Assembly: GCA_947498445.1 (NCBI GenBank)
Contig: CANMLK010000004.1
Location: 1-49,555, forward strand
Reading direction: 5' to 3'
DNA length: 49,555 nucleotides
DNA from: Beijerinckiaceae bacterium
GTDB lineage: Bacteria; Pseudomonadota; Alphaproteobacteria; Rhizobiales; Beijerinckiaceae
In this document: positions 437 through 32,829 of the stretch, one piece after another
Numbering within the stretch: the stretch's first letter is position 1
Layout of the letters: every line of letters begins with the position of its first letter
The notes under the pieces: model-generated
What the model saw: the letters and a program-made list of their open reading frames with translations, nothing else
What the model was told of the DNA's origin: nothing
Database searches by the model: none
Translations under genes and position numbers: made by a program

Positions 437-516
437 CCCCCTGTCATACAGGGCGCAAGCGCGCGTAAGCGTGCATGACATTCGCGCGCGTGCTCGCATT
501 CTCAGGAGATCCGGTC

Positions 517-10549: not shown

Positions 10550-10558
10550 GGCGCCCGC

Positions 10559-11599: not shown

Positions 11600-11661
11600 A
11601 TCTACCTCTGCGAATTCGGACCGGTGGGCGCGCTGAAGCGCCCACCGTGGCGCGCCGGACC

Positions 11662-12573: not shown

Positions 12574-12602
12574 GATTGATTCTCCTTGGAAGGTGCGAAA
12601 CG

Positions 12603-13472: not shown

Positions 13473-14212
13473 CACGCCACCCTGTCGCATTCGTGCGCTT
13501 CGCGATCAAACGCTTCCACCATGCGCCGCGCCGAGAGAAGGTTTTCCGGCTTCAGCACAGCGTCCGTATCGCCCCACGCAATCGTCTCACGCGCCAGCAG
13601 AAGCGTTTGCGGAAAGGTGCGCCGAACGACGTCGAGATCGTGGAGAACCGCTATCACCGTGCGTTTCTCATCGCTCCAGCGTTTCACAAGCGCGAGCAAC
13701 TCGCTGGTTGTGCGCTGGTCGATGCCGTTGAACGGCTCGTCGAGAAGGATGACGGGCGCGTCCTGCAGCAACACCCGCGCGAAGAGGATGCGTTGCATCT
13801 GGCCACCCGACAACGTGCCAATGTGGCGATCCTCAAAACCCGTGAGCCCCACAGATGCGATGGCGTCGAACGTCTTCTCGCGATCTTGCTTGATCAACCC
13901 GCCGAACCATCCGGTGGCGCGGAAATTGCCCATCGCCACCATGTCAAACACGTTCACGGGAAACGTGCGATCGATCTCGTGGGCCTGCGGCAGGTACGCA
14001 ATGCGATTGGTGGGGCAGGTAATACGTTCGACGGCCCCGCCGATGGGCGGCAGCACGCCCATAATGCCCTTGAGGAGCGTCGACTTGCCGCCCCCGTTAG
14101 GGCCGCACACAGCCAGCAGCGCGCCTTGCGCAATCTCGCCATCGAGATGATGCACGGCGGGATGTCGGTCATAGCCGAGGGTCAGATTGTGAAAACGCAA
14201 CGCGGTGGTCAT
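13472..14212 (-). CDS. znuC: Zinc ABC transporter, ATP-binding protein
   Basis: 246-residue ABC ATPase. Walker A is GPNGGGKST (37-45), the Q-loop is in YLPQAHEID, the signature is LSGGQMQR, Walker B is VILLDEPFNG and the H-loop His is in AVLHDLD. The start at 14212 is chosen because GAGG lies upstream and the protein then begins at the ABC core; an open frame continues much further upstream but overlaps the small gene at 14227. It provides energy for ZnuB-dependent zinc import. Confidence 0.95.
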   Translation of the reverse strand: MTTALRFHNLTLGYDRHPAVHHLDGEIAQGALLAVCGPNGGGKSTLLKGIMGVLPPIGGAVERITCPTNRIAYLPQAHEIDRTFPVNVFDMVAMGNFRATGWFGGLIKQDREKTFDAIASVGLTGFEDRHIGTLSGGQMQRILFARVLLQDAPVILLDEPFNGIDQRTTSELLALVKRWSDEKRTVIAVLHDLDVVRRTFPQTLLLARETIAWGDTDAVLKPENLLSARRMVEAFDREAHECDRVA

Positions 14213-14226
14213 GGCTTCACCCTCGC

Positions 14227-14430
14227 TCAGGCCCATGCCCAGAAAACACTGAGCCAGATCGCCGCGACAAGGGTGAGCGCCAGCGCGAGGCGTTGAAGCG
14301 AAGACATGCGCAGCAGGGAAAAGCCGGGGTGTGCGCGGCGTGGCGCGTGGGCATGGCCGTCCGGCGCGTGGGCGTGTATGGCATGGCCCCGGTGCGAATG
14401 CGTTTGTTCGTGGTCGTGACTGAGTGACAT
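14227..14430 (-). CDS. His-rich single-pass small membrane protein, first gene of zinc operon
   Basis: 67 residues, starting MSLSHDHEQTHSH. The first 34 residues contain ten histidines in HxH and HxHx patterns, followed by a basic patch and one C-terminal hydrophobic helix (about residues 46-67). Its stop lies 14 nt before the znuC start, so it is co-transcribed. The layout suggests a membrane-anchored zinc-binding tail working with ZnuBC, or a metal sensor peptide. The family is not one I recognise. An ATG with GGATGGG upstream and the even spacing of histidines make a chance reading frame unlikely. Confidence 0.65.
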   Translation of the reverse strand: MSLSHDHEQTHSHRGHAIHAHAPDGHAHAPRRAHPGFSLLRMSSLQRLALALTLVAAIWLSVFWAWA

Positions 14431-14446
14431 CGATACCCATCCGTTA

Positions 14447-15683: not shown

Positions 15684-16457
15684 TCAGCCGGTCGGGTCAG
15701 TCTTGGAGAATCCCGGTCCCATTTCCCATGCGGCCGGGAAGTAGGGGCGATCCACCAGGCGGCACCAGTTTTCCCAGCCACGCTCATAGGTGAAGCCGGC
15801 GCGGCCCTTGGTGTTGGCTGCGACCTCGCCGTCGCTCAATGGCGTAATGTCGTTTCCGCCAAGCGCGTAGGCCTTGATGAGCATGTCGGCGTTGATCTCC
15901 ATGTAGATGGAGGTGAACACCACATCGCGCAGCGACTTGCCAACCACAACCGAGCCGTGGCCGCGCATGAGCGACACTGTGCGGGACGCCAGCGTCTTGG
16001 CGAGATCGCGGCCCATGTCCATGGAGGTCACGAGCAGGTTAGTCTCGCCGAATTTGTGCGCGATGTCCCATGTCGGGATGTCCGTGCCGATTGGCGCGCA
16101 CATGTGCATGATCGGGCGAAATTTCCTTTTGCCCTGCACGGTGAAGGGCACGACGTTCGGGCTGTGGTTGTGCACCACCGCCATGACATCGGGGCGGGCT
16201 TCATAGATGGCGCCGTGAATGAAGCGTTCCGAATATGGCTTGCCGGGGTTGTGTCCGACAATGTCGCCTTCTTGCGTGAATTCGGTGATGTCGATCACTT
16301 CCACGCAATTGGGTGCGCGGGCGCGCGACATGAGGAAGTGGTTCGGGTTGCTCGGATGACGGATCGACACATGGCCGAAGGAATCCACCACATGATGATA
16401 GGCGAGCACCTTGTTCGCCGTGACGAGGTCTTCCTTGATTTGTTCGAGTTCGGTCAT
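15684..16457 (-). CDS. Class II aldolase/adducin family protein
   Basis: 257-residue enzyme related to L-fuculose-phosphate aldolase and ribulose-phosphate epimerase AraD, zinc dependent. The metal ligands appear in VVHNHSPNVVP (the HxH pair) and in the later LMRGHGSVVVG, with SFGHVSIRHP near the N-terminus and the acidic catalytic residue expected in PYSERFIHGAIYEARPD. The start at 16457 has GGGAGG at 6 nt. It follows the flavin monooxygenase gene by 92 nt on the same strand. Some relatives in aromatic clusters act on hydroxy-keto acids or decarboxylate; the substrate here is open. Confidence 0.88.
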   Translation of the reverse strand: MTELEQIKEDLVTANKVLAYHHVVDSFGHVSIRHPSNPNHFLMSRARAPNCVEVIDITEFTQEGDIVGHNPGKPYSERFIHGAIYEARPDVMAVVHNHSPNVVPFTVQGKRKFRPIMHMCAPIGTDIPTWDIAHKFGETNLLVTSMDMGRDLAKTLASRTVSLMRGHGSVVVGKSLRDVVFTSIYMEINADMLIKAYALGGNDITPLSDGEVAANTKGRAGFTYERGWENWCRLVDRPYFPAAWEMGPGFSKTDPTG

Positions 16458-16549
16458 GCGCATCCTCCCGGATATTGATAAGCGTTCTCTACCATGTTTC
16501 AGCACGCGGGGAAGAGGGGCCAATGCGCCCGCGCATGACGGAGCTTTTG

Positions 16550-18181
16550 TTACCTCTCGCCGTGCCCCGTTGCGATGGCGGCGACTTCAGCGGGATATTC
16601 GGGCGGCGTGTTGCCGCGCCAGACGATGTGCAGATCGGGCCGCAGCAGGATGAGGTCGAAACCGTATACTTCGCGCGCCACACGGTCGGGAATTTCCAGC
16701 GTTGATATGGGAGCGCCGCGTGCGGCGAAGGCCTTGGCGAGGCCGGATGAATCCGCCTTCGTGTTGCCCAGCCGCAAGATCGTGTAGCCCTCGGGAATAC
16801 GATCCTGAATGGGCGAGCCGTCGCCCACCCACACGTTGGGCAGGCGCGAACCCGGCCATGTGTTGGGAATGTATTCGCGGAAGAGATGCTCCGGCCCGCC
16901 GGGAATATCCATGATGATTGGCGAGTCGACGTAGCGATAGCCCAGTTCCGCGCCAATCATTTCGTTGGTCTTGCGCTGTTCAATGTCGGCGATCATCGTC
17001 AGCACTTCGCGCGTCTGCTGTCCCGCAGGCGTATCCTCGTCGATGTTGGGCTTCCACATGGAGCGCCACTTGCGCCGGCCCTGCGATGCGTAGCGCGAGG
17101 CGCCGACGTTGCGGTCGCCTATCTGGCGGCGCTCAAATTCATAGGATGGCAACAGTTTTGGCCCGCCCCAGCCCTTGATGACGGCTTCAAGCTTCCACGA
17201 CAAATCTATCGCGTCGCCGCAGCCCGAATTCATGCCAAGCCCGCCCGTGGGGATGACGAGATGCACGGCGTCGCCCGCAAGGAACACGCGGTCCTGTTGG
17301 TATTTGTCCGCGACAAGCAGGTTCTGGCGCCACGGATTGCAGGACAGCATTTCGTATTTCACGGGGATACCGACGGTCTTCTCAAACTGGCGCTTCATTT
17401 CCTCGTCTGAATCGACAGTGGCGTGCAGGGTCCAATGCTTTGTCGAGTCCTGCATGATGAGGAACGTCGCCTTGTCGTCGGCCACATGATAGTGGCGGCC
17501 GCGCGTGGGGCCGTTGCCAATCGGCAGCCTGTCGAACAATTCGTCGCAGCGATAAAGCGCTTGCCGCAGGCCCAGAAGTCCCGCCTCGCCGCGCAGTTTG
17601 ATGTTGATGGCGTGACGCACCGGGCTGACGCCGCCGTCGCAACCCACAACATAGCGGGCGCGGATGCTGGACGTCGCGCCGTCCTTGGCGCGCACCTGCA
17701 CACTGACGCCTTCTGGGTCTTGCGCGAGCGACACAAATTCGGTGGACCAGTGCAGGGTCACGTCGCTCTGCCGTTCGCAAAACTTCGCGAGCAGCGGCTC
17801 CAGCGAATATTGCGAAATAAGTTGATAGGGCTCGCAGGGCGCCGTGCCATCGTTGGTGGCGCGCGCATCGAGTTTGGCTTCCTTCACGGACGGATAGGGC
17901 AGGCGCAGCAGCGGTGGCCGGTCGAGCGAAAGCACGACGAACACGTCCATCGGCACGTCTTCGCGCAGACCCGCCTTGCGCACGTCATCGACGATGCCGA
18001 GGCGGCGGAAAATCTCCATCGTGCGCGCGTTGCAACGCTCCATTTTCGGCAGGAAGGCGGGCTCCGCCCTCTGCTCGATGATGGTCGTCTTCACGCCGCG
18101 GCGGCCAAGATCGAACGCCAGCGTGAGGCCAACGGGCCCCGCGCCCACGATGAGGACGTCGGTGTTCAGATGAGCGTCCAT
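16550..18181 (-). CDS. FAD-dependent aromatic monooxygenase (PheA/TfdB type)
   Basis: 543-residue class A flavoprotein hydroxylase, related to phenol 2-monooxygenase, 2,4-dichlorophenol hydroxylase and MhpA. The N-terminal FAD site is LIVGAGPVGLTLAFDLGRRG, the middle DG motif is CDGG, and the second FAD motif is VFLAGDAVHLVIPTGGLGMN. A C-terminal thioredoxin-like domain ends with FDLILLRPDLHIVWRG. The start at 18181 is chosen for its 8-nt distance from GGAGG; the ATG at 18187 is too close. It lies downstream of an IclR regulator and upstream of a class II aldolase, suggesting an inducible aromatic pathway. Exact substrate unknown. Confidence 0.92.
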   Translation of the reverse strand: MDAHLNTDVLIVGAGPVGLTLAFDLGRRGVKTTIIEQRAEPAFLPKMERCNARTMEIFRRLGIVDDVRKAGLREDVPMDVFVVLSLDRPPLLRLPYPSVKEAKLDARATNDGTAPCEPYQLISQYSLEPLLAKFCERQSDVTLHWSTEFVSLAQDPEGVSVQVRAKDGATSSIRARYVVGCDGGVSPVRHAINIKLRGEAGLLGLRQALYRCDELFDRLPIGNGPTRGRHYHVADDKATFLIMQDSTKHWTLHATVDSDEEMKRQFEKTVGIPVKYEMLSCNPWRQNLLVADKYQQDRVFLAGDAVHLVIPTGGLGMNSGCGDAIDLSWKLEAVIKGWGGPKLLPSYEFERRQIGDRNVGASRYASQGRRKWRSMWKPNIDEDTPAGQQTREVLTMIADIEQRKTNEMIGAELGYRYVDSPIIMDIPGGPEHLFREYIPNTWPGSRLPNVWVGDGSPIQDRIPEGYTILRLGNTKADSSGLAKAFAARGAPISTLEIPDRVAREVYGFDLILLRPDLHIVWRGNTPPEYPAEVAAIATGHGER

Positions 18182-18233
18182 GTGCATGTCCTCCGCAAGG
18201 CGGCGCCCACATTTTTGGACGGCCGCTCATACA

Positions 18234-18364: not shown

Positions 18365-19123
18365 TTAGACGGGCTCTTCTTCCCGGCGCATTGTCGCGCG
18401 GGTCAGGATTCGCGCGCAAAAAACCACGCGGCTGGCGATCTGCGCTTGCCGTTCAGGCGGCAGCCTGGGTTGGCCGACGGTTACGCTGAGGCTGCCGAGA
18501 ACTACCCCGTTCTGGTCAAAAACGGGGGCTGCGACACCGGTGACGCCGGGCGTGACGTTGCCCATGGTGCAATCCCAACCACGATGCCGGATCTGGCGGA
18601 GGATGAGACGGGCGGCGTCAATGTCTTTGCCCAGGCCCGCCGCTTCCAGATCGTTTCTGCGCGTCTCCAGCGTCGTCTTGATGATGGCGCGGGACAGGTT
18701 CGCTAGGATGACTCGGGAGGCCGCGCCGCGCAGCAACGGGCGGGCGAGGCCCCTCTCATAATTTGAGACAAAGCCTGGTGAATTCTGCTCCTGATGGACG
18801 CAGAGCACCGTGTCGCGATAGCGACGGCAGAGCAGGGCGACGCCGGGTAATTCGGCGGCGAGTTCCGCCATCATCGGCTTGCCCGCGACGATGAGGGGAT
18901 CGCGGCTGCGCATGAGATAATCGAGTTCGGCGACGCGCGGGCCCAGCGTATAGCCAAACCCCGGCAACGAGGTGAGAAGCCCCGCTTCCACCAGCGCTTT
19001 CAGGTAGCGATAAAGGGTCGAGCGGCTGTAACCCAGATTGGCGGCCATGGCGTCGCCGGACCATTCCATCGTGCGGCCGTCGAACAGGTCGAGAATGGCG
19101 AGCATGCGCTCGGGCGAATTCAC
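18365..19123 (-). CDS. IclR-family transcriptional regulator
   Basis: 252 residues. An N-terminal winged helix (about 1-60, with MAANLGYSRSTLYRYLKALV as recognition region) is followed by an IclR effector domain (GRGL-like segment YERGLARPLLRGAASRVILA, then GVAAPVFDQNGVVLGSLSV). The start is GTG at 19123 with GGGAG at 8 nt. It probably controls the monooxygenase-aldolase pair downstream on the same strand, and itself. The N-terminal domain is shorter than in many IclR proteins. The effector is unknown. Confidence 0.93.
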   Translation of the reverse strand: MNSPERMLAILDLFDGRTMEWSGDAMAANLGYSRSTLYRYLKALVEAGLLTSLPGFGYTLGPRVAELDYLMRSRDPLIVAGKPMMAELAAELPGVALLCRRYRDTVLCVHQEQNSPGFVSNYERGLARPLLRGAASRVILANLSRAIIKTTLETRRNDLEAAGLGKDIDAARLILRQIRHRGWDCTMGNVTPGVTGVAAPVFDQNGVVLGSLSVTVGQPRLPPERQAQIASRVVFCARILTRATMRREEEPV

Positions 19124-22887: not shown

Positions 22888-23904
22888 TTACTTGATCTTG
22901 AGCAGCTGCTGCGCGTTCTTGTAGCAGATCTTCTCGCGGTCTTCCTGGCTCATCTCGAGGGATTCGAGAATCGCGATCGTCTCGCGGATGTAGGCGGGGC
23001 CCTTTTCCGGGTCGAACGGGCAGTCGGACGCGAAGAGCACGCGGTCGGCGCCGTAGAACGCGAGGCCGCACTCGGTCGCGGGCTTGGAGCCGAAGACGGC
23101 GCTGTCGGCGTAGAAGTCCTTGAAGTAGTCGAGCGGGCGCTTCTTCATGTTCTTGAGAAGCGTCTTGTAGTCCTCGTCCGTCGTGCGGTTGCCAAGCTGA
23201 TCCCAGCCCGGGCCGACGCGGCCTTCAAAGAACGGCACCATGGCGCCAAGGTGATGGGCCAGAACCTTCAGGTTCGGGAACTGGTCCATGACGCCGCCGA
23301 ACACGAGGCGGGCCATCGCGGCCGACGTCTCGTAGGGCCAGCCGAACGTCCACCAGATTTCGTACTTCGACTTGTTCTCGGTCTTGTAGTCCGGCAGGTC
23401 GAAAGCGCCGCGCGAGGGATGCAGAAACACCGGGTTCTGGGTCTGCTCCGAGATCTGGAAGATCGGGCGGAACTGCTCATCGTCCAGCGGGATGCCGTTG
23501 ATGTTGGTGTGGAGCTGCAGGCCGTTTGCGCCGATCGAGATCGCGCGCTCGTATTCCTTCTCGCGGTTGGTCGAATTCATCGGCAAGGAGGCCAGGAATC
23601 CGCAGAAGTAATCGGGGTTCTTGGCGACGAGTTCGGCCATGCCATCGTTGGCGAGCTTGGCGAAGTCATCGACCTGTTCGGGCGTGCCCAGCGCTTCGAG
23701 CGGGGGCATGCCGAGCGAGATGACCTGCGTGTAATTGTGCTTGGTGCGGAACATGTCCACGACGCGCTTGCGCTCATCGAGATCGTAAATGCACGGAATG
23801 CCGCGCATGCGCGCGCCGATGTCGGCGGACGCGCCCGGCGTCGCCAGCATCTTATCCCAGAGAGCCTTGGGGAAAAAGTGATTGAAACAATCGATATAGC
23901 GCAC
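22888..23904 (-). CDS. Amidohydrolase-2 (ACMSD-like) family protein
   Basis: 338-residue TIM-barrel protein of the group that includes aminocarboxymuconate-semialdehyde decarboxylase and gamma-resorcylate decarboxylase. Metal-site residues are visible as His162 (VFLHPSRG), His217/His218 (VLAHHLGAM) and Asp294 (FASDCPFDP). The first motif reads IDCFNHFFP, so the first His of the usual HxH is Phe7 and only His9 remains. The start is GTG at 23904 behind AGGAGG. It is divergent from two cupin genes, which suggests a shared pathway. Decarboxylase or hydrolase activity on an aromatic or ring-cleaved acid is inferred from family only. Confidence 0.85.
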   Translation of the reverse strand: MRYIDCFNHFFPKALWDKMLATPGASADIGARMRGIPCIYDLDERKRVVDMFRTKHNYTQVISLGMPPLEALGTPEQVDDFAKLANDGMAELVAKNPDYFCGFLASLPMNSTNREKEYERAISIGANGLQLHTNINGIPLDDEQFRPIFQISEQTQNPVFLHPSRGAFDLPDYKTENKSKYEIWWTFGWPYETSAAMARLVFGGVMDQFPNLKVLAHHLGAMVPFFEGRVGPGWDQLGNRTTDEDYKTLLKNMKKRPLDYFKDFYADSAVFGSKPATECGLAFYGADRVLFASDCPFDPEKGPAYIRETIAILESLEMSQEDREKICYKNAQQLLKIK

Positions 23905-24126
23905 GGGTTTCCTCCTGCGGGGAGCCTGGCGCTGTGGCCCGGGCCCTGTCTAAGATGGGGCTCACATAGCCTTACCCGCCTGTTCTGGCCAAGCGTTTTT
24001 TGCATCGCGCGCGCTGCGCCACGCTGAAGCCAGGCAGGGGTGACAGGGTAGGGGGGAGGGTGTTATCAAGGCTTCAGGCTCCGCCGCCCAAGAAGCGGCG
24101 GCTTCACCTATTTTGCGGAGGACTGC
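23905..24126. promoter_or_regulatory. Divergent promoter region, amidohydrolase/cupin
   Basis: 222-bp gap between divergently transcribed genes. It contains a hairpin CCGCCGC (24081-24087) / GCGGCGG (24095-24101) in the likely leader of the cupin transcript, just upstream of the GGAGG at 24117-24121. No clear -35/-10 pair could be picked by eye. Confidence 0.35.
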
Positions 24127-24765
24127 ATGAACCTCGATCCGAGAGTCCAGAAGGGCGGCGCTGCGGCGGCCGAGGTCGGACACAATTCGGCGTCGCTTGA
24201 TGAATTGCGCGCCAATCTCTTTCACAACAAGAAGGACCGCGTTTTCGTGCGCGGCATCCAGGGCGAATACAACGTCACGGCGGAACTCGACCGTCTGCGC
24301 GCTGTGCCCCGGGTTCGCAAGGCCAAGGAAACCGGCTTCATCGACGGGCCGCTGTGCTTCAGCCGCCATTATGTCGAGCCGAAGGATGGCATCACCCAGA
24401 CCTTCCACATGCATCTGGAAGAATATGCGCCCGGCGCGTTTTCGCAGAAGCATGGCCACGTGAACGAAGCCGCCTTCTACATTCTGGACGGCAAGGGCTA
24501 CGAGATCCACGACGGCATCCGCTACGATTGGGAAGCGGGCGACATCGCCATCGTGCACAACAATTGCGTGCACCAGCACTTCAACGCGCAGACCGACAAG
24601 CCCGCCCGTGCGCTCGTCATCAAGACGAAGCCGATGTACCTCTTCCTCAACATGCTGTTCCAGAAGCAGGTTAAGGAGCGTCCGGTCGAAATGACGCCGG
24701 AGGCCGAAGGCTTCACCGCGCGCGAAATCGAAGAAGATTACAACCATCCCAAGGGAGGTTATTGA
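24127..24765 (+). CDS. Cupin-domain protein, first of tandem pair
   Basis: 212 residues, single cupin barrel. Motif 1 (FSQKHGHVNEAAFYIL) supplies His109, His111 and Glu114; motif 2 (NNCVHQHFN) supplies His149 and His151. It is a paralog of the cupin at 517: both share an N-terminal GHNS, an RVFVR block and the ending LFxxMLFQK, but here the motif-1 Glu is present. The stop overlaps the next start (TGATG). The pair may form a hetero-oligomeric metal enzyme, for example a dioxygenase acting before the divergent amidohydrolase. The reaction is unknown. Confidence 0.85.
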   Translation: MNLDPRVQKGGAAAAEVGHNSASLDELRANLFHNKKDRVFVRGIQGEYNVTAELDRLRAVPRVRKAKETGFIDGPLCFSRHYVEPKDGITQTFHMHLEEYAPGAFSQKHGHVNEAAFYILDGKGYEIHDGIRYDWEAGDIAIVHNNCVHQHFNAQTDKPARALVIKTKPMYLFLNMLFQKQVKERPVEMTPEAEGFTAREIEEDYNHPKGGY

Positions 24766-25376
24766 TGGCTTGGGGTGAAGTCGGAGCGTGGCTTGAAGGC
24801 AAGAACAATGAGCGGCTCTATCAGCGCCTGCTCGACGAGGCGCAGGATGCGCCCTCGCGTAACGCCCGCCGCAAGAAGGTCGTCAAGCCTGCGGACATGC
24901 CGTGGGAAATGTCGCGTCAGGGCTTGCTCAAGCACCTGATGAACGAGGCGATGAACACGCGCATCGAGACGGTTGACGCCTATATGCAGATCATCCCGCC
25001 GGGCTCGCGCTCGGGCAAGCACAGCCACCTTGCGGAAGAGTGCGTCTACGTACTCGAAGGCAAGGGCTACGACCTGCATCAGGATTGCGACGCCGAGATC
25101 ACCGACACGTTCGTTTGGAAGCCGCGCGAAGAGATCAAGCGGCTCGAGTGGGAAGCTGGCGATTACATCTACGTTCCGCCGGCGACGATCCATCAGCATT
25201 TCAACGCTGATCCCACCAAGCCGGTTCGCCTGATCTCGTCCACGGCGCGCATCTTCCGCCAGATGGGCCTGAACACGCTGGACCAGTTGGAAGATTGCCC
25301 CGAGTTCGATCCCAAGGTCGTGCTCAACGCCGATATCGTGCGCGAATACCTGCGCGGCGAGCGCAAGGGCAAGTAA
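24765..25376 (+). CDS. Cupin-domain protein, second of tandem pair
   Basis: 203 residues. Metal-site residues are His86, His88 and Glu91/Glu92 in SGKHSHLAEECVYVLEG, then His143 and His145 in ATIHQHFNADP. Between the two motifs lies an insertion (QDCDAEITDTFVWKPREEIK) absent from its partner. The ATG at 24765 follows AAGGGAGG and overlaps the preceding TGA, so expression is coupled. The pattern is closer to gentisate-dioxygenase-like cupins than to 3-hydroxyanthranilate dioxygenase. A terminator follows. Confidence 0.85.
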   Translation: MAWGEVGAWLEGKNNERLYQRLLDEAQDAPSRNARRKKVVKPADMPWEMSRQGLLKHLMNEAMNTRIETVDAYMQIIPPGSRSGKHSHLAEECVYVLEGKGYDLHQDCDAEITDTFVWKPREEIKRLEWEAGDYIYVPPATIHQHFNADPTKPVRLISSTARIFRQMGLNTLDQLEDCPEFDPKVVLNADIVREYLRGERKGK

Positions 25377-25400
25377 GCAGCCTTGAACTGATAAACACAA

Positions 25401-25427
25401 ACGCCCTCGCGAAAGCGGGGGCGTTTT
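25401..25427 (+). terminator. Rho-independent terminator of the cupin pair
   Basis: ACGCCCTCGC (25401-25410), GAAA tetraloop, GCGGGGGCGT (25415-25424) with one G-T wobble pair, ending in TTTT. It lies 24 nt after the second cupin stop. Confidence 0.88.
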
Positions 25428-25460
25428 GCTTTGCGGGTGGGGATTTCCTACATAAGAGCC

Positions 25461-27047
25461 ATGTCCGCAGATCAGCCCGAGAAGCCCGCCCACTCCCTCT
25501 ACGATCACGCCTTTGGCGCGTTCTCCACCCATGCGCATGCGCCGGGCGAAGAGGCGGACCATGTGCACGACGCGGATGACAACCTCGTGCTGGATCCGCG
25601 CGAGAACACTGATGTGCCGCTGATCAGCATCGGGATCGACATCGGCTCTTCGGGCACGCAGGTCGTCTTCTCACGTCTGTTGATGCGGGGCCCAGGCGAG
25701 CCGCTCGCCATGCGCCGACAGACGAAAGCGCGCGAGACGCTGTTCATGTCGCCGGTGTCGATGACGCCGTTCAACGACGACGGGGCGACGATCAACGGCG
25801 TGCGCCTGCGAGGCATCGTGGATCGCGCCTACGTCATGGCCGGGATTACGCCCGATGATGTGGAGACAGGCGCCGTCATCATGACGGGCGCTGCTGCGCG
25901 GCGCGAAAACGCAGCCGCCATCATGGACGCGCTGGCGGAAGGGGGCGGCGAACTCGTCGCCGCCGCTGCGGGCGATCATCTGGAGGCCATGCTGGCCGCC
26001 TATGGTTCGGGCGCGGTCGAGGTTTCGCGGCGCGACATGCGCCGTATTCTCAATGTTGATATCGGCGGCGGCACGACAAAGTTTGCGTTGCTGGACTGCG
26101 GGCGCATTGAAGAAACAGCGGCGCTGCGCGTGGGCGGGCGCCTCGTTGCGTTTGATCTGAACAACGCCATCGTGCGGCTGGAAGGCGACGGCGCCGAACA
26201 TGCCCGGCGTGTGGGTATAAACTGGCAGGGCGGCGCCATCGCCAACAAGGCGGAGATGCAGCAGGTCGCCGAAGCGATGGCCGCGATGGTCATCGCGACG
26301 CTGACGCAACACCCTTTGCCGGACGATGTGGCGGGCGCCTTCATCACGCAGCCGCTGGGGCCGCTTGGCGCGCTGGACGGCGTGATGTTCTCGGGCGGCG
26401 TCGCTGAATATGTGTATCTGCGTGAGACGCGCGATTTTGGCGATCTAGGCTGGCGGCTTGGCCGCGCCATCCGCCGCGCGTTTGACGACGGGCGCGTTCC
26501 CTTCACGCTGTTACCGCCGGGCGAATGCATGCGGGCCACAGCGCTGGGCGCATCGCAATACAGCGTGCAGATGAGCGGCGCCACATCGTGCATCACCTCG
26601 CACGCGCTGCTGCTGCCGCGCCGCAATTTGCCTGTGCTGATGCCGACCTATGATTTTTCCGGCGCGCTCGACGCCAAGGCCATTGCGCAGGCCATTCGCC
26701 GCCATCGCGTGTTGTTCGACGATGGCGATCCGGCGCGCGAAGTCGCCTTCGCCTTTCGCTGGCGCGGCCTACCCGAGTATGAGCGCGTGCGCGCACTGGC
26801 CGAGGGATTGCGCGTCGGCCTTGCCGACCGCGTCGCGGCGGGGACAAATCTCTACGTGATGCTGGAGGGCGACGCCGCGCTGACGCTGGGCGCCATTCTC
26901 AAGCAGGAGCTGGGGCTGGCCAATGAGATTTTGGTGCTCGACGGGATCACGCTGCGGGACTTCGACTACGTGGATATCGGCCGCATCCGCATGCCGTCCG
27001 CGATGGTGCCGGTGACGGTGAAGAGCCTGGTGTTTGGCGGGGTGTGA
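25461..27047 (+). CDS. EutA-family protein (ethanolamine ammonia-lyase reactivase type), orphan
   Basis: 528-residue ASKHA-fold ATPase. It follows EutA along its length: GIDIGSSGTQVVFSRL (phosphate 1), RILNVDIGGGTTKFALLDCG (phosphate 2), MFSGGVAEYVY, ATALGASQYSVQMSG (adenosine region), LPRRNLPVL, and the end DYVDIGRIRMPSAMVPVTVKS. The first 50 residues form an extra His/Asp-rich tail (FSTHAHAPGEEADHVHDADD). EutA normally exchanges damaged adenosylcobalamin on EutBC, but neither eutB nor eutC is in this window. The gene lies between the cupin pair and the fds operon, 72 nt before fdsG. The start at 25461 is chosen as the first ATG. The actual client enzyme is unknown. Confidence 0.85.
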   Translation: MSADQPEKPAHSLYDHAFGAFSTHAHAPGEEADHVHDADDNLVLDPRENTDVPLISIGIDIGSSGTQVVFSRLLMRGPGEPLAMRRQTKARETLFMSPVSMTPFNDDGATINGVRLRGIVDRAYVMAGITPDDVETGAVIMTGAAARRENAAAIMDALAEGGGELVAAAAGDHLEAMLAAYGSGAVEVSRRDMRRILNVDIGGGTTKFALLDCGRIEETAALRVGGRLVAFDLNNAIVRLEGDGAEHARRVGINWQGGAIANKAEMQQVAEAMAAMVIATLTQHPLPDDVAGAFITQPLGPLGALDGVMFSGGVAEYVYLRETRDFGDLGWRLGRAIRRAFDDGRVPFTLLPPGECMRATALGASQYSVQMSGATSCITSHALLLPRRNLPVLMPTYDFSGALDAKAIAQAIRRHRVLFDDGDPAREVAFAFRWRGLPEYERVRALAEGLRVGLADRVAAGTNLYVMLEGDAALTLGAILKQELGLANEILVLDGITLRDFDYVDIGRIRMPSAMVPVTVKSLVFGGV

Positions 27048-27119
27048 GCGCTCTGAGCGCGCCTCGATTTTGCGGCGCTCTCGTGCGACACTAGATGCGT
27101 GGAGGGGACGAAAGAAGAT

Positions 27120-27623
27120 ATGAGCGCAGACGTTTTCAACGCAGATGACGCCGAGCGGATCATCGCCGCCCAGATGGAGCAGGCGCGGGTTTTCTATGGC
27201 GAGGACGCGAAAGGCGCCGCGCCGCTGCTGCCCATTCTTCACGCGTTGCAACATGCCTTTGGCCATGTGCCCCCGCAGGCGCAGCCGATCATCGCCCATG
27301 CGCTCAACATTTCGCAGGCCGAAGTGCGCGGCGTCGTTTCATTCTACCATGACTTCAAGACAGAACCTGCCGCGCGGGCGGTGATCAAATTGTGTCGCGC
27401 GGAAGCCTGTCAGGCGCGCGGCTGCGAGCGCATCGCCGCGCACCTTGAGTCCGCGTACGGCCTGAAAACGGGCGCGCGTTCGCATGACGGACATATCTCG
27501 CTAGAGAGCGTTTATTGCCTCGGCAATTGCGCGCTCGGCCCCACCGCGCTTTTGGGCGACGATCTCATCGGCATGATTGATGAAGCGCGCGCAGATGCGC
27601 TTGTGGCGCAGGCGCGCCGATGA
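27120..27623 (+). CDS. fdsG: NAD-dependent formate dehydrogenase, gamma subunit
   Basis: 167-residue NuoE-like subunit carrying a [2Fe-2S] cluster on a thioredoxin-like fold. The four ligands are Cys92, Cys97, Cys133 and Cys137 (LCRAEAC and YCLGNC). With FdsB it forms the NADH-producing diaphorase part of the soluble, oxygen-tolerant molybdenum formate dehydrogenase. First gene of the fds set; its stop overlaps the fdsB start. Confidence 0.95.
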   Translation: MSADVFNADDAERIIAAQMEQARVFYGEDAKGAAPLLPILHALQHAFGHVPPQAQPIIAHALNISQAEVRGVVSFYHDFKTEPAARAVIKLCRAEACQARGCERIAAHLESAYGLKTGARSHDGHISLESVYCLGNCALGPTALLGDDLIGMIDEARADALVAQARR

Positions 27624-29155
27624 GCGTGCGCGTTTACATCCCCGCCGATGCGGCCGCCAAATCTATTGGCGCAGACGCTGTCGCCGCGGCTGTGCGCGAT
27701 GAGGCAATGCGTCTCGGGCTTGCCATCGAGATTGTTCGAACAGGCTCGCGCGGCTTGCTCTGGCTTGAGCCGATGGTTGAGATTGAGACGGCGCGCGGGC
27801 GCGTGGCCTATGGCGTCGTGCGCGTCAGCGATGTCGCGAACCTTTTTGCTGCAGGCTTTCTCGATGGCGCCGAGCATCCGCTGTCGCTGGGGTTAGTGGA
27901 TGATATCTTGTATCTGCGCGCGCAAACGCGCCTCACCTTCGCGCGCGTTGGCGTCAACGATCCGCTGTCGTTTGAGGCCTATGTCGCAAGCGGCGGCATG
28001 ATGGGGCTCGCTCGTGCGCAGGCGATCAGCACGGACGCTATCCTTGACGAGATGACCATATCAGGTCTGCGCGGGCGCGGCGGCGCGGGCTTTCCCGCCG
28101 CCATCAAATGGCGCACCGTGCGCGATGCGCAATCGGCGCGCAAATACGTCGTCATCAATGCAGACGAAGGCGACAGCGGCACGTTCGCTGACCGGATGTT
28201 GATGGAGGGCGATCCCTTTCTCATCATCGAAGGCATGGCGATTGGCGCGCTTGCCGTGGGCGCTGATCGCGGCGTTATTTATATCCGCTCGGAATATCCG
28301 CACGCCATCCATGTGATGAATGAGGCGCTGCGCATCGCGCGACGTGAAAAGCTGCTGGGTGCGCATTTCGATGTTGAGGTGCGCGTGGGCGCGGGCGCCT
28401 ATGTTTGCGGCGAGGAAACCGCGCTGCTGGAAAGCATCGAAGGCAAGCGCGGACAAGTGCGCGCCAAGCCGCCGCTGCCAGCGCATCGCGGCTTGTTTGG
28501 CAGGCCTACACTGGTTCACAATGTGCTCACCATCGCTGCTGCGCCAACAATTCTTGCCAACGGCGGCAAGGCTTATGGCGACCTTGGCGTGGGTCGCTCG
28601 CGCGGCACAAAGCCGGTGCAACTTGCAGGCAATGTGAAACGCGGCGGGCTTTATGAACTGCCCTTTGGCGTCACCCTGCGCGAACTTGTGTATGACATCG
28701 GCGGGGGAACCGCGAGCGGGCGGCCGTTGCGCGCCGTGCAGGTTGGCGGTCCGCTCGGCGCTTATTTTCCTGAACATCTGCTAGATACGCCGCTTGACTA
28801 CGAAGCAATGGCGAAGGCTGGCGGCCTCCTTGGCCACGGCGGCGTTGTTGTCTTCGATGACGGCGTGGACATGGCGCGCCAAGCGCGGTTCGCGTTTGAG
28901 TTTTGCGCAACGGAAAGTTGCGGCAAGTGCACGCCCTGCCGTATCGGCTCCACGCGCGGCGCAGAGACACTCGACAAGATTGTCGCGGGCGTTGAGGTTG
29001 AAAAAAACATGGCGCTTGTGGATGATCTGCTAACGCTGATGACGGATGCTTCGCTCTGCGCTCTTGGCGGGCTGACGCCATTGCCGGTGGGTAGCGCACT
29101 GAAACATTTCCCTGAAGATTTCATTCGTGCGCCAAAATGCGCTGCGGCAGAATAG
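27620..29155 (+). CDS. fdsB: NAD-dependent formate dehydrogenase, beta subunit
   Basis: 511-residue NuoF-like subunit binding FMN, NAD and one [4Fe-4S] cluster. An N-terminal thioredoxin-like segment of about 110 residues precedes the flavin/NAD region (SGLRGRGGAGFPAAIKW, NADEGDSGTFADR, YICGEE-like AYVCGEETALLESIEG). The cluster ligands are in ESCGKCTPCRIG with a fourth Cys in SLCALGG. The start overlaps the fdsG stop (ATGA). Confidence 0.96.
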   Translation: MSVRVYIPADAAAKSIGADAVAAAVRDEAMRLGLAIEIVRTGSRGLLWLEPMVEIETARGRVAYGVVRVSDVANLFAAGFLDGAEHPLSLGLVDDILYLRAQTRLTFARVGVNDPLSFEAYVASGGMMGLARAQAISTDAILDEMTISGLRGRGGAGFPAAIKWRTVRDAQSARKYVVINADEGDSGTFADRMLMEGDPFLIIEGMAIGALAVGADRGVIYIRSEYPHAIHVMNEALRIARREKLLGAHFDVEVRVGAGAYVCGEETALLESIEGKRGQVRAKPPLPAHRGLFGRPTLVHNVLTIAAAPTILANGGKAYGDLGVGRSRGTKPVQLAGNVKRGGLYELPFGVTLRELVYDIGGGTASGRPLRAVQVGGPLGAYFPEHLLDTPLDYEAMAKAGGLLGHGGVVVFDDGVDMARQARFAFEFCATESCGKCTPCRIGSTRGAETLDKIVAGVEVEKNMALVDDLLTLMTDASLCALGGLTPLPVGSALKHFPEDFIRAPKCAAAE

Positions 29156-29162
29156 GAGAACG

Positions 29163-32009
29163 ATGATGTCGCTCTCTCGTGAAAAAGATTTCGGAACGCC
29201 GCTGCGCACTGGCTCCACGATGGTGACATTGAGCATTGATGGCGTGCAAACGCGCGTTCCGGCGGGCACGTCCGTGATGGCGGCTGCCGCAAAAATGGGA
29301 ACGCAAATACCAAAGCTCTGCGCCACGGATACGCTGGAAGCGTTTGGTTCGTGTCGGCTTTGTCTTGTTGAAATTGAAGGACGTCGTGGAACGCCCGCGT
29401 CATGCACGACGCCTGTGGAAGACGGCATGGTCGTGCGCACGCAGACCAAGCGCGTTGCGGATCTGCGCCGTGGCGTGATGGAGCTTTACATTTCCGATCA
29501 TCCGCTTGACTGTCTGACATGCTCGGCCAATGGCGATTGCGAATTGCAGGATATGGCTGGGGTAGTGGGCTTGCGGGATGTGCGCTATGGTCAGGATGGC
29601 GAGCAGCATCGTACGATTGCAGCCGACGACAGCAACCCCTATTTCACGTTCGATTCATCCAAGTGCATCGTGTGTTCGCGCTGCGTGCGCGCGTGCGAAG
29701 ATGTGCAGGGCACATTCGCATTGACCATTGATGGGCGGGGCCTTGGCTCGCTCGTGGCGACAGGCGGGCCTGATTTTCTCGGTTCAGAATGCGTGTCCTG
29801 CGGCGCTTGCGTGCAGGCGTGCCCCACGGCGACGTTGAACGAGAAAAGCATCATCGAGATGGGCGCGCCGACCCGTTCCATCGACACGACATGCGCCTAT
29901 TGCGGCGTGGGCTGCGGCTTTCGCGCCGAGATGCAGGGCGACAAGGTCGTGCGCATGGTCCCCTCCAAGGCGGGCAAGGCGAATGAAGGCCATTCGTGCG
30001 TGAAGGGCCGCTTCGCGTGGGGTTACGCGACGCACAAGGATCGCATTACAAAACCGATGGTCCGCGCGAAGATTACCGATCCATGGCGCGAGGTGACATG
30101 GGACGAGGCGTTTGCGCACGCCGCGTCCGAGTTCCGGCGCATTCAAGGCGCGTATGGAGTGGATTCCATCGGCGCGATCACGTCATCGCGTTGCACAAAT
30201 GAAGAAACGTTTCTCGTGCAGAAGCTGGTGCGCGCGGGCTTTGGCAACAACAACGTCGATACGTGCGCGCGTGTCTGCCATTCGCCCACCGGCTATGGAC
30301 TGAAGACCACGTTCGGCACGTCGGCCGGTACGCAGGATTTCAAGTCCGTCGCGCTGTCGGATGTGATTTTGGTTATCGGCGCCAATCCCACGGACGCGCA
30401 TCCTGTCTTTGCGTCGCGCATGAAAAAGCGCCTGCGCAAGAGCGCTAAGCTTATTGTCATCGATCCCCGCCGCATTGATCTTTTTCGCACAGCGCATATC
30501 GAGGCTGATCATCATCTCGCATTGAAACCCGGCACGAATGTCGCGATCATCAACGCGCTGGCGCATGTGATCATCACGGAAGGACTTGTGAATGAGGCGT
30601 TCGTTCGCGAGCGCTGCGACTTGGGCGATTTTGAAAGTTGGGCGCGCTTTATCGCGCGCGACGAAAACGCGCCTGAGGCGGTGGAGAAGGTTTCTGGCGT
30701 CGCTACAAGTGAAATCCGCGCCGCAGCGCGCCTTTTTGCTACGGGCGGGAACGGCGCGATTTATTACGGCCTTGGCGTGACCGAACATTCGCAAGGCTCG
30801 ACCATGGTCATGGGCATGGCCAACCTCGCCATGGCGACCGGAAACCTCGGGCGCGCTGGCGTGGGCGTCAACCCGCTGCGCGGGCAGAACAACGTGCAGG
30901 GGGCGTGCGACATGGGCTCGTTTCCGCACGAGTTCTCTGGCTATCGTCATGTGTCGGACGATGCGACGCGCGACATGTTTGAAGGGCTGTGGGGCGTCAG
31001 CCTTTCGCCAGAGCCGGGCCTGCGCATTCCCAACATGCTCGATGAAGCCGTCGAGGGCCGCTTCAAGGGGCTCTACATTCAGGGCGAAGACATTGCGCAA
31101 TCTGATCCTGATACGCAGCATGTCACGCGCGGGCTGCGCAACATGGAATGCGTCATTGTGCAGGATCTGTTCCTGAACGAAACTGCTAAATACGCGCATG
31201 TGTTTTTTCCCGGTTCGTCGTTTCTTGAAAAGGATGGCACGTTTACGAACGCGGAGCGGCGTATCAGCCGCGTGCGCAAGGCGATGGCGCCGCAGGCGGG
31301 ACTTGCAGACTGGGAAACTACGCTGGGTTTCGCCAAGGCGCTTGGGTGTGTTTTCTCGTATGCTCATCCTTCGCAGATCATGGACGAGATCGCCGCGCTG
31401 ACGCCGACGTTTGCGGGCGTAAGTTACGCGAAGCTCGATGAGCTTGGCTCAATCCAGTGGCCGTGCAACGACTCTGCTCCACAAGGCACGCCGATCATGC
31501 ATGTCGAGCGGTTTGTGCGCGGCAAGGGCAAGTTCATGATCACGGATTTTGTGCCGACGGACGAACGCACGACGCAGCGGTTTCCGCTGATCCTCACGAC
31601 CGGGCGCATCCTCTCGCAATACAATGTCGGCGTGCAGACGCAGCGCACCGCCAACACTATCTGGCATGATGAGGACGTGCTGGAAATCCACGCGTTCGAC
31701 GCTGAAAACCGCGGCATTCGCGATGGCGATCTCGTCGCGATCCAGAGCCGCTCTGGCGAGGTTGCGCTGCACGCGCGCATTTCAGAGCGCATGCAGCCGG
31801 GCGTCGTCTACACGACGTTCCATCACGCAAAGTCTGGCGCCAATGTCATCACCACCGATTACTCGGACTGGGCGACCAATTGCCCTGAGTACAAGGTGAC
31901 GGCGGTGCAGGTGCAGCGCACGAACCGCTGGTCGGACTGGCAGGAAGAAGATCGCGCAAGCGGTGACTTGTTGCGCATCATTGAACGGAAAGCCGATGCC
32001 GCCGAATAA
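29163..32009 (+). CDS. fdsA: NAD-dependent formate dehydrogenase, catalytic alpha subunit
   Basis: 948 residues. The order is: N-terminal [2Fe-2S] ferredoxin domain (CATDTLEAFGSCRLCLVE); His-Cys cluster region (HPLDCLTCSANGDCELQ); two [4Fe-4S] sites (CIVCSRCVRAC and CVSCGACVQACP); another cluster motif at the start of the molybdopterin region (CAYCGVGCGF); then the bis-MGD domains. The active-site residue is Cys372 followed by His373 in CARVCHSPTG, so it is a cysteine, not a selenocysteine, enzyme. Start at 29163 after AGGAG. It oxidises formate to CO2 and passes electrons to NAD+ via FdsBG. Confidence 0.97.
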   Translation: MMSLSREKDFGTPLRTGSTMVTLSIDGVQTRVPAGTSVMAAAAKMGTQIPKLCATDTLEAFGSCRLCLVEIEGRRGTPASCTTPVEDGMVVRTQTKRVADLRRGVMELYISDHPLDCLTCSANGDCELQDMAGVVGLRDVRYGQDGEQHRTIAADDSNPYFTFDSSKCIVCSRCVRACEDVQGTFALTIDGRGLGSLVATGGPDFLGSECVSCGACVQACPTATLNEKSIIEMGAPTRSIDTTCAYCGVGCGFRAEMQGDKVVRMVPSKAGKANEGHSCVKGRFAWGYATHKDRITKPMVRAKITDPWREVTWDEAFAHAASEFRRIQGAYGVDSIGAITSSRCTNEETFLVQKLVRAGFGNNNVDTCARVCHSPTGYGLKTTFGTSAGTQDFKSVALSDVILVIGANPTDAHPVFASRMKKRLRKSAKLIVIDPRRIDLFRTAHIEADHHLALKPGTNVAIINALAHVIITEGLVNEAFVRERCDLGDFESWARFIARDENAPEAVEKVSGVATSEIRAAARLFATGGNGAIYYGLGVTEHSQGSTMVMGMANLAMATGNLGRAGVGVNPLRGQNNVQGACDMGSFPHEFSGYRHVSDDATRDMFEGLWGVSLSPEPGLRIPNMLDEAVEGRFKGLYIQGEDIAQSDPDTQHVTRGLRNMECVIVQDLFLNETAKYAHVFFPGSSFLEKDGTFTNAERRISRVRKAMAPQAGLADWETTLGFAKALGCVFSYAHPSQIMDEIAALTPTFAGVSYAKLDELGSIQWPCNDSAPQGTPIMHVERFVRGKGKFMITDFVPTDERTTQRFPLILTTGRILSQYNVGVQTQRTANTIWHDEDVLEIHAFDAENRGIRDGDLVAIQSRSGEVALHARISERMQPGVVYTTFHHAKSGANVITTDYSDWATNCPEYKVTAVQVQRTNRWSDWQEEDRASGDLLRIIERKADAAE

Positions 32010-32829
32010 GCCCGCGCCCACCGTCACCGTTGAAGTCGAGCGGATCGGCCTGTCCGACGGCATGCGCGAGGCTGGCCTGCGCGAAGCGCCGACGGAAACG
32101 CCGGTCAATATCGTCTATGCGCCTATCCCTTTCGCAGTGATGATGTGCACGCCGCAGGATCTGGAAGACTTTGCAATCGGGTTTTCATTCACGGAAGGCA
32201 TCATCGATTCCATCGCCGACATTCGCTCTGTCGTTGTTGAGGAGGACGAAGAGCAGCGGGGGTTGCGGCTTGTCGTTTCGCTGGCGTCGGAGAAGATGCA
32301 GCGCCACCTGGCGCGCGCGCGCAACATTTCGGGACGCACCGGGTGCGGTGTGTGCGGCATTGAAGACCTTGGCGCCATGCCGTGTGCACGCGCGATTACT
32401 GCTGCGCCCTTTGAGTTGACAACGACGTCGATGAGCCGCTCGCTTGACGAAATCGTCGCCGGGCAGAAGCTCAATGAAGCCACAGGAGCGGTTCATGCGG
32501 CGGCGTGGTGTACGCCGCAGGGCGAGGTGCTGGCGATCCGCGAGGACGTTGGCCGCCACAACGCGCTCGACAAGTTGATTGGGCATTTGCTCAGGGGCAG
32601 CGTTGACCCCGGGTCGGGATATTTTGTCATCACGAGTCGCTGTTCGTTCGAGATGCTGGAGAAGGTGGCGGCGTTTGGCGCGCGGGCTGTCGTTGCTATT
32701 TCCGCGCCCACCGCGCTGGCGATTGAGCGCGCGCGTCTGCATGGCGTGACGCTGGTTGCGCAGGCGCGCAACGGGCGTGCGCTTGTGTTTTGCGGCGGCC
32801 AGCATGTTCGCGTGGAGGCGTCGTCGTGA
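31996..32829 (+). CDS. fdhD: Formate dehydrogenase accessory sulfurtransferase
   Basis: 277-residue FdhD/FdsC protein that binds bis-MGD and passes sulfur to the molybdenum site before insertion into FdsA. The CxxC motif is Cys117 and Cys120 in GRTGCGVCG. Other conserved blocks are ILREDVGRHNA-like AIREDVGRHNALDKLIG, VITSRCSFEML and ISAPTALAIE. The ATG at 31996 overlaps the end of fdsA by 14 nt, showing tight coupling. Confidence 0.96.
   Translation: MPPNKPAPTVTVEVERIGLSDGMREAGLREAPTETPVNIVYAPIPFAVMMCTPQDLEDFAIGFSFTEGIIDSIADIRSVVVEEDEEQRGLRLVVSLASEKMQRHLARARNISGRTGCGVCGIEDLGAMPCARAITAAPFELTTTSMSRSLDEIVAGQKLNEATGAVHAAAWCTPQGEVLAIREDVGRHNALDKLIGHLLRGSVDPGSGYFVITSRCSFEMLEKVAAFGARAVVAISAPTALAIERARLHGVTLVAQARNGRALVFCGGQHVRVEASS

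Follow-up and report, generated by a model that had tools for sequence, protein, structure and literature searches.

EutA is the reactivase of ethanolamine ammonia-lyase, on which it exchanges adenosylcobalamin for spent cobalamin (PMC9426561). Canonical eut operons also hold a cupin, EutQ (PMC12487888); a eut operon is described for C. difficile (PMC3483176). The present analysis concerns a stretch of 49,555 nucleotides from a Beijerinckiaceae bacterium (assembly GCA_947498445.1, contig CANMLK010000004.1, here contig C4; "the window" denotes this whole stretch), in which a EutA-like ATPase gene lies downstream of two cupin genes, with an amidohydrolase gene divergent from the cupins on their other side. 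The comparisons described below give strong support to a partnership between this EutA branch and cupins. The locus probably encodes a metal-dependent cupin enzyme together with a dedicated ATP-driven factor for metal loading or reactivation, a reading favored with some reserve, and the metal is perhaps nickel.

The EutA-like protein resembles EutA in its sequence family and in its nucleotide-binding site. Its PF06277 match is nearly full-length, spanning profile positions 3–474 of 475 with an E-value of 4e-107, and the ASKHA nucleotide and phosphate motifs are kept, with no variation at G58, D60 and G62 or at D200, G202, G203 and T205 among 81 sequences. Judged from where the alignment of relatives starts, the ATG at 25461 is a likelier start codon than the TTG at 25431. 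The predicted structure (predicted local distance difference test score, pLDDT, of 85, with low confidence in the N-terminal tail) has an ASKHA fold, and its fold neighbors include Ppx/GppA, the 2-hydroxyglutaryl-CoA dehydratase activator HgdC (1hux), EutJ, and DnaK. As with EutA, the protein would be expected to act on the enzyme of its own gene cluster. However, the branch differs from EutA proper in three respects: it lacks the EutBC client, falls below the equivalog cut-offs, and lies outside the canonical clade. The window protein scores below all four NCBIfam EutA cut-offs listed (best 290 bits vs. a cut-off of 598). The five EutA-like proteins of the source genome are 30–35% identical to five canonical EutA proteins (E. 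coli, L040–L043) and 25% identical to a sixth (L044). In the EutA tree, a single branch (Shimodaira–Hasegawa-like approximate likelihood ratio test 100) sets these six canonical proteins apart as a clade of their own.

The source genome (3.9 Mb, 332 contigs, 98% complete) contains five full-length PF06277 genes, four of them outside the window. All four genes of the locus were found at the coordinates given in the original prediction, which was made from the DNA letters alone, and their profile matches (PF04909, PF07883, and PF06277) agree with the families assigned there. The translational coupling of the cupins was likewise borne out: the start codon of cupin 2 is the ATG at 24765, which overlaps the stop codon of cupin 1 in the sequence TGATG, and the corresponding methionine, at position 2 of the open reading frame, is conserved. 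The reported absence of eutBC holds genome-wide, with zero matches to EutB or EutC anywhere in this 98% complete genome, so a EutBC client encoded elsewhere in it is ruled out. These results bear on the possibility that the ATPase reactivates an adenosylcobalamin enzyme encoded elsewhere, its proximity to cupins reflecting a shared pathway. PF06277 membership and the kept ATP motifs are consistent with such a role. It is nevertheless very improbable, given the missing EutB and EutC (the search did not extend to diol and glycerol dehydratases) and the company kept by canonical EutA, which forms its own clade: in a survey of 397 Pseudomonadota genomes, EutA was present in 6, and EutB was immediately adjacent in all five other than the source genome. 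No EutB was found in the EutA-like loci scanned.

The association with cupins was assessed at the level of whole genomes. In the source genome, a cupin lies within 1 kb of all five EutA-like genes; by rough reasoning, such adjacency would not be expected by chance, because 46 Cupin_2 matches occur in its 3.9 Mb. The surroundings of the other four EutA-like genes include double cupins of about 400 amino acids, a short cupin, a LigXa-type Rieske oxygenase, reductases, and a 4,5-dihydroxyphthalate-decarboxylase-like protein. Among 386 alphaproteobacterial genomes drawn irrespective of either gene (source genome included, double cupins taken at E ≤ 1e-30), EutA is present in 11, a double cupin in 12, and both in 11 (Fisher p 2e-20, or 6e-19 without the source genome). 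The lone genome with a double cupin and no EutA, G655, is 70% complete. Outside the source genome, a double cupin was found within 500 bp of 17 of the 27 alphaproteobacterial EutA genes, on the same strand in 16 of the 17, with at most five cupin candidates scored per genome. Among 72,556 plasmid records, the four with a double cupin are the same four that carry a 37–38% identical EutA. Of ten non-rhizobial EutA records in this search, two were examined, both haloarchaeal, and their EutA genes sit with eutBC. A scan of named genomes with the five source-genome proteins yielded 463 relatives; the best 80, which were kept, come, to judge by record title, from Alpha-, Beta-, and Gammaproteobacteria, Streptomyces and other Actinomycetota, Cohnella, Acidobacteria, and others. 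EutA–cupin adjacency itself extends across distant lineages, including Pseudomonadota, Actinomycetota (e.g., L058), Cohnella (L117), and a metagenome-assembled genome of Deferrisomatales (L121).

Adjacency was further counted in 120 non-identical EutA-like genes, most of them from loci fetched on EutA alone; this set leaves out the loci chosen on cupin 1 (L146–L165, L163 being chosen on a cup1-like gene) and 20 hand-picked class loci. A cupin lies within 1 kb of 77 of these genes and within 5 kb of 91; the corresponding numbers for the 65 genes with at least 5 kb on both sides are 42 and 52. Divided by origin, a cupin within 1 kb was found for 5/5 genes in the source genome, 3/3 on plasmids, 12/17 in the genus, and 57/95 in named genomes. 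The class loci (L204–L223), which are 20 of the 27 alphaproteobacterial EutA places and were hand-chosen after the adjacency result was known, show a cupin within 1 kb in 19 of 20 cases, for a total of 96/140. Close pairs with long flanks, class loci included, are on the same strand in 54 of 59 cases. A few duplicates are contained in the locus counts for EutB, for nickel genes, and for window-type genes, as L046/L131, L098/L140, and L049/L143 are, by their length, the same contigs. The gene caller used on fetched loci missed 18 of 261 known genes. The arrangement varies in detail. A small monocupin replaces the double cupin beside EutA in L207, L211, and L217, and in L214, L220, and L221 two or three double cupin genes in tandem are followed by a single EutA-like gene. 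Those EutA-like genes without a cupin neighbor that were examined lie beside TRAP/tricarboxylate-transporter or unrelated genes.

The pairing is also specific. Each EutA gene with a co-directional cupin within 1.5 kb was labeled by partner type, namely split pair, double cupin of type dcupA, dcupB, or dcupC, or monocupin, which gave 95 labeled genes. The tree comprises 153 rows, leaving out three identical rows and one fragment (L067, unlabeled), and was built by a quick method with long-branch warnings, one of which names a canonical row. On this tree, partner type changes 5 times, the minimum for its five states being 4; with unlabeled and canonical rows counted as groups, 27 changes are needed, vs. 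a shuffled mean of 86. The computation shows that each EutA subclade pairs with its own cupin type and that the pairing is cognate. The co-occurrence check proposed in the original prediction thus came out positive: in the 386 genomes, the tree, and the 120-gene set, EutA-like genes and cupins are neighbors far beyond chance. It may be asked whether the two gene families merely meet in mobile catabolic clusters without any functional link. Such clusters are gene-rich and variable, and 9 of the 33 window-type EutA genes are without an adjacent cupin pair. Joint presence in 11 of 11 genomes, the 17 of 27 pairs within 500 bp, the partner-specific clades, and the recurrence in distant lineages make the absence of a link hardly credible. 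Chance neighborhood is rejected on the genome-level co-occurrence and the partner-specific clades.

The cupin partners of the window are two separate genes, cup1 and cup2. Their complete His/His/Glu/His metal sites, claimed in the original prediction, are conserved over 42 rows: in cupin 1, H109, H111, and H149 are kept in 42/42 rows and E114 in 38/42; in cupin 2, H87, H89, and H144 are kept in 41/42 and E93 in 42/42. In hhalign comparisons, cupin 2 aligns with domain 1 of dcupA (residues 79–161) and cupin 1 with domain 2 (residues 237–316). Because they align with different domains, cup1 and cup2 look like the separate halves of one split bicupin. The earlier idea that the cupins form a two-subunit dioxygenase gains support from this alignment as regards its two subunits; the dioxygenase activity itself and the proposed supply of its product to the amidohydrolase stay predictions. 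While cup1 and cup2 both keep a complete metal site, dcupA has lost that of domain 1, where two ligand positions are mostly Gln, and has four His in domain 2 (H254, H256, H261, and H299, kept in 51–52 of 52 rows). In 49 other rows, dcupA is 73–91% identical to the source-genome copy and better conserved than the neighboring EutA. Its model (pLDDT 90) has fold matches to oxalate decarboxylase, seed storage proteins, and gentisate and salicylate dioxygenases, with template modeling scores near 0.48.

The closest described relatives of these cupins are the bicupin dioxygenases acting on gentisate (1,2-), salicylate (1,2-), and 5-aminosalicylate. The cupin fold and the His ligands are common to both, cupin 1 weakly matches the gentisate and 5-aminosalicylate enzymes (gentisate 1,2-dioxygenase 3bu7, E-value 6e-9), and the double cupin matches by fold. 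The differences are that cup1 and cup2 are split genes scoring far below the equivalog cut-offs, and that dcupA has the altered sites described above. Another comparison is offered by the quercetinase QueD, a cupin dioxygenase that uses Ni, Co, or Mn with a 3His/1Glu site and tolerates 4His (PMC4416304). The cupin sites described here, dcupA included, are likewise of the 3His/1Glu and 4His kinds. No dedicated ATPase is mentioned in the abstract of PMC4416304.

From these comparisons and the gene neighborhoods, an oxygenase activity, a substrate class, a source of formate, a contact between ATPase and cupin, and the handling and identity of a metal can be inferred as follows. Most likely, cup1 and cup2 form one bicupin oxygenase in aromatic-acid catabolism. 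The pathway would yield formate, which the formate dehydrogenase encoded downstream would oxidize. The EutA-like ATPase most likely binds the cupin enzyme and opens it through ATP binding and hydrolysis, as EutA does on ethanolamine ammonia-lyase; in the opened cupin, a metal ion rather than adenosylcobalamin would be inserted, or a spoiled metal replaced. Metal loading or reactivation is thus the most likely mechanism, inferred though it is. The original prediction had assigned the ATPase to a metalloenzyme of its own locus instead of a B12 enzyme. This part withstood both tests proposed for its refutation, namely neighborhood with the cupins and a search for eutBC elsewhere in the genome, while the repair action remains a proposal. 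The His/Asp-rich N-terminus of the window EutA subtype could hold the metal for delivery. This extension (HxxxDHxxG...HxH...DHDHD) is present in nearly all rows of the window and dcupA-associated EutA types, and in a comparison with 84 other proteins the window protein has 6 His and 12 Asp/Glu among its 59 N-terminal residues. In contrast, four canonical EutA rows lack the extension and have 0–1 His at the N-terminus.

Nucleotide-driven metal delivery of this kind has precedents. CooC is a nickel maturation nucleoside triphosphatase (NTPase) of the same kind as HypB and UreG. For HypB and UreG, nickel delivery is nucleotide-driven, and HypB is a G3E P-loop GTPase (PMC7055735). Nucleotide-driven delivery and metal-binding stretches are the features proposed to be shared by the EutA-like protein. 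The difference lies in the fold: these proteins are P-loop enzymes, while the EutA-like model has an ASKHA fold and not that of a P-loop G3E/SIMIBI NTPase. Neither EutA nor cupin nor dioxygenase occurs in the available portion of PMC7055735. PMC12746152 describes a Rieske oxygenase with the cupin LumY and, in the portion available, no EutA, and in PMC4334477 and PMC4996985 the name EutA denotes an ectoine enzyme. No description of EutA together with these cupins was recognized in the accessible parts of the open-licence literature, a result that argues only weakly for its absence.

Nickel or cobalt is the leading, though unproven, candidate for the metal, since in other lineages genes for nickel transporters and NikR are repeatedly found next to EutA. 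In a survey of 147 loci (2.48 Mb, some overlapping), NicO/NixA-family Ni/Co transporter genes were found in 15 and NikR in 5. Each of the 15 transporter genes is found no more than about 3 kb from EutA; in five cases the gap is at most 25 bp or the genes overlap. Their assignment varies in support: the Pfam NicO cut-off is exceeded by eight divergent members, TIGR00802 is passed by two full-length members and narrowly missed by one, and four are assigned by phmmer similarity. Many of the 15 loci are related betaproteobacterial ones, and the number of independent events is estimated at perhaps five or six. On a plasmid of Phyllobacterium zundukense, the order is cupin, EutA, NixA-family Ni/Co transporter, and nikR; a second copy in this organism has the order cupin, EutA, LysR, and the metal transporter YjbE. 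In the source genome (3.9 Mb), one NicO gene and one NikR gene are present, both off the EutA-bearing contigs, and a NicO match was obtained in 5 of 14 control genomes. NikR was also considered as a constant companion and rejected, being present in 11 of 21 genomes searched (10/10 in the genus, 1/11 in others). Two further kinds of gene were noted in the neighborhoods. A small protein is encoded near cupin and EutA genes (L007:4135–4632, minus strand, with relatives in L053, L082, L100, L109, and L212); three copies were scanned against Pfam without a match, the two copies that were read (L007, L212) have a C-terminus rich in His, and the protein could possibly be a metal store or chaperone. 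An ABC importer, possibly for an acid or a metal (permease of about 580 amino acids, TOBE-type ATPase, and SBP_bac_6 binding protein) is often encoded after or close to EutA (L064:16103–18998, L051, L054, and others).

In its most specific form, the proposal would make the EutA branch an ATP-driven nickel (or cobalt) insertase and reactivase for a hitherto unrecognized group of nickel-dependent cupin dioxygenases in aromatic-acid breakdown, with EutA subclades that split along with their client cupins. This form is put forward tentatively, at roughly one chance in three. If so, it would have no precedent among the ASKHA ATPases known to the authors, none of which handles a bare metal ion.

Two other roles for the ATPase have to be weighed against metal handling. 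A general chaperone for cupin assembly or disassembly (of the oligomer or heterodimer, or for product release), with no part in metal handling, accounts for the same pairing evidence; DnaK is among the fold neighbors, and the EutA paired with dcupB has no His-rich extension. Since the other two main subtypes do carry His/Asp-rich extensions and nickel genes recur nearby, this role is considered rather unlikely. Alternatively, the ATPase could act on the substrate, phosphorylating or otherwise activating an enolic acid that the cupin converts, so that both would belong to one enzyme system. HyuA-type ASKHA proteins, which belong to acetone or acetophenone carboxylases, would be the model for such a system. 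An obligate two-component enzyme would explain the close co-occurrence and the cognate pairing equally well. However, the sequence family is that of EutA and the fold neighbors are those listed above (HyuA was not compared directly), and a subunit should adjoin every cupin, whereas numerous double cupins are located away from EutA. Substrate activation is accordingly judged less likely still than the chaperone role.

A number of observations weigh against a dedicated metal-loading factor for a cupin dioxygenase. A EutA–cupin neighborhood is by itself no distinguishing mark of this branch, because canonical eut operons carry EutQ. For many double cupins, no EutA is adjacent, and those on contigs C36 and C54 of the source genome have none on the same contig. 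A single ATPase serving several cupins would produce this pattern, which nonetheless limits the argument. Among cupin 1 orthologues from cupin-1-fetched loci, EutA is within 3 kb for 9 of 20 and not for 11; five of these loci had been selected in the knowledge that EutA was located elsewhere. The nine window-type EutA genes without adjacent cup1/cup2 lie partly at contig ends and partly beside TRAP or formate dehydrogenase genes. As to the enzyme, named dioxygenase models are passed by none of the four cupins scored: they give cup1 32.1 bits vs. a cut-off of 650 and 22.4 vs. 442.1, cup2 has no match to them, and dcupA and dcupB match no NCBIfam family at E ≤ 1e-10. As to the metal, no nickel genes were found within the window, NikR is missing from 10 of 11 alphaproteobacterial double-cupin carriers outside the genus, and in the ten genus genomes it is never adjacent to EutA. 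The EutA of the dcupB type is without the His-rich N-terminus, and that of the dcupC type has 0–3 His there. Finally, a conserved hairpin in the gap between cupin 2 and EutA weakens the idea of one tight operon, as it suggests that transcription of these genes is not simply joint.

This hairpin folds strongly in the window. Of the gaps of 8 relatives, read by eye, 6 show it clearly (L047, L126–L129, and L136); it is not present in L156, and L153 is complex. It is kept although the gap sequence varies among species. The terminator scan gave the site on the minus strand only. According to the predicted folding, the hairpin may let fewer transcripts continue into EutA, as would suit a helper required at lower levels than its client.

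The composition of window-type loci was examined in relatives. For this purpose, 34 cupin 1 orthologues were available, 14 from the window or EutA-fetched loci, all with EutA by choice, and 20 from cupin-1-fetched loci. Cupin 2 is adjacent in 32 of the 34, EutA lies within 3 kb in 23, the amidohydrolase within 3 kb in 21, and both in 20. Seen from the 33 window-type EutA genes, the cupins are adjacent in 24 cases, formate dehydrogenase in 8, and neither in 6. In genomes assembled in few contigs, for instance G022 and G024, the cupin pair is on EutA's contig but hundreds of kb away; adjacency is therefore not obligatory. On the amidohydrolase side of relatives' loci, aldolase, FAD monooxygenase, and IclR genes recur. 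The coordinates of the features are collected in Table 1.

Table 1. Features of the locus and its surroundings in the window (numbering from the first nucleotide of the 49,555-nucleotide stretch)
Feature	Coordinates	Strand	Match or remark
Class II aldolase/adducin-family gene	15684..16523	-	PF00596; near cup1-cup2-EutA in some relatives (L129, L135, L136, L139, L155)
FAD monooxygenase	16550..18187	-	PF01494; kept in few relatives (L129, L153, L164)
IclR-family regulator (PcaR-like)	18365..19123	-	PF01614; kept in some relatives (L129, L139, L155, L156, L159, L162)
Amidohydrolase-2 family gene	22888..23904	-	PF04909, 107 bits; divergent from cupins
Cupin 1 (cup1)	24127..24765	+	PF07883, 46.3 bits; corresponds to double-cupin domain 2
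Cupin 2 (cup2)	24765..25376 (open reading frame 24762..25376)	+	PF07883, 43.7 bits; corresponds to double-cupin domain 1
Hairpin, 12 pairs, terminator-like, between cupin 2 and EutA-like gene	25399..25426	+	RNAfold of gap
EutA-like ASKHA ATPase	25461..27047 (open frame from TTG 25431)	+	PF06277, 359.5 bits
His/Asp-rich N-terminal extension of EutA-like protein	25491..25583	+	H11-N41, numbered from ATG 25461
NAD-dependent formate dehydrogenase gamma (FdsG-like) subunit	27099..27623	+	PF01257, 130 bits
Formate dehydrogenase beta (FdsB-like) subunit	27620..29155	+	PF01512, PF10589
Formate dehydrogenase alpha (FdsA-like, molybdopterin) subunit	29127..32009	+	PF00384, 231 bits, and other matches
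FdhD sulfurtransferase	31963..32829	+	TIGR00129, over cut-off

The formate dehydrogenase and fdhD genes (27099..32829), directly downstream of EutA, were absent from the original list of features, as were the hairpin and the four EutA-like genes outside the window. Beyond fdhD, two small or unassigned frames are followed by TauD-family and TRAP/TAXI transporter genes. The window amidohydrolase matches the solved structures of 5-carboxyvanillate decarboxylase (E-value 6e-26) and ACMSD (3e-22); its best PDB match is 3ij6, an uncharacterized hydrolase, and gamma-resorcylate decarboxylase is also among its relatives. Related clusters hold genes for a LigXa-type Rieske oxygenase (LigXa_C 487 bits for the copy on contig C23), a 4,5-dihydroxyphthalate-decarboxylase-like protein, RraA/aldolase, and tricarboxylate transporters. 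These neighbors suggest aromatic acids as substrates and nothing more precise. The 4,5-dihydroxyphthalate-decarboxylase-like protein (L007:3007–3993, plus strand, match to 9jp7 with an E-value of 3e-84) recurs in many related loci and may be a second general member of the cluster. Elsewhere in the window, a further cupin gene (475..1095, plus strand) is 40% identical to cupin 1 and has a similar HQHF signature, with no EutA nearby. A zinc-uptake group (9512..14440, minus strand) comprises, in one row, an ABC ATPase, an ABC-3 permease, ZnuA, a CobW-family GTPase, and a WD40-repeat protein.

Both EutA-like copies of Phyllobacterium zundukense are annotated as ethanolamine ammonia-lyase reactivating factors. 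If the proposed function is correct, this pipeline name would be wrong for the whole EutA branch. In that case, cofactor reactivases would not be confined to B12 enzymes but would also serve mononuclear metal oxygenases, and access would be gained to a family of oxygenases whose standard expression may fail because the activator is missing or the wrong metal is supplied.

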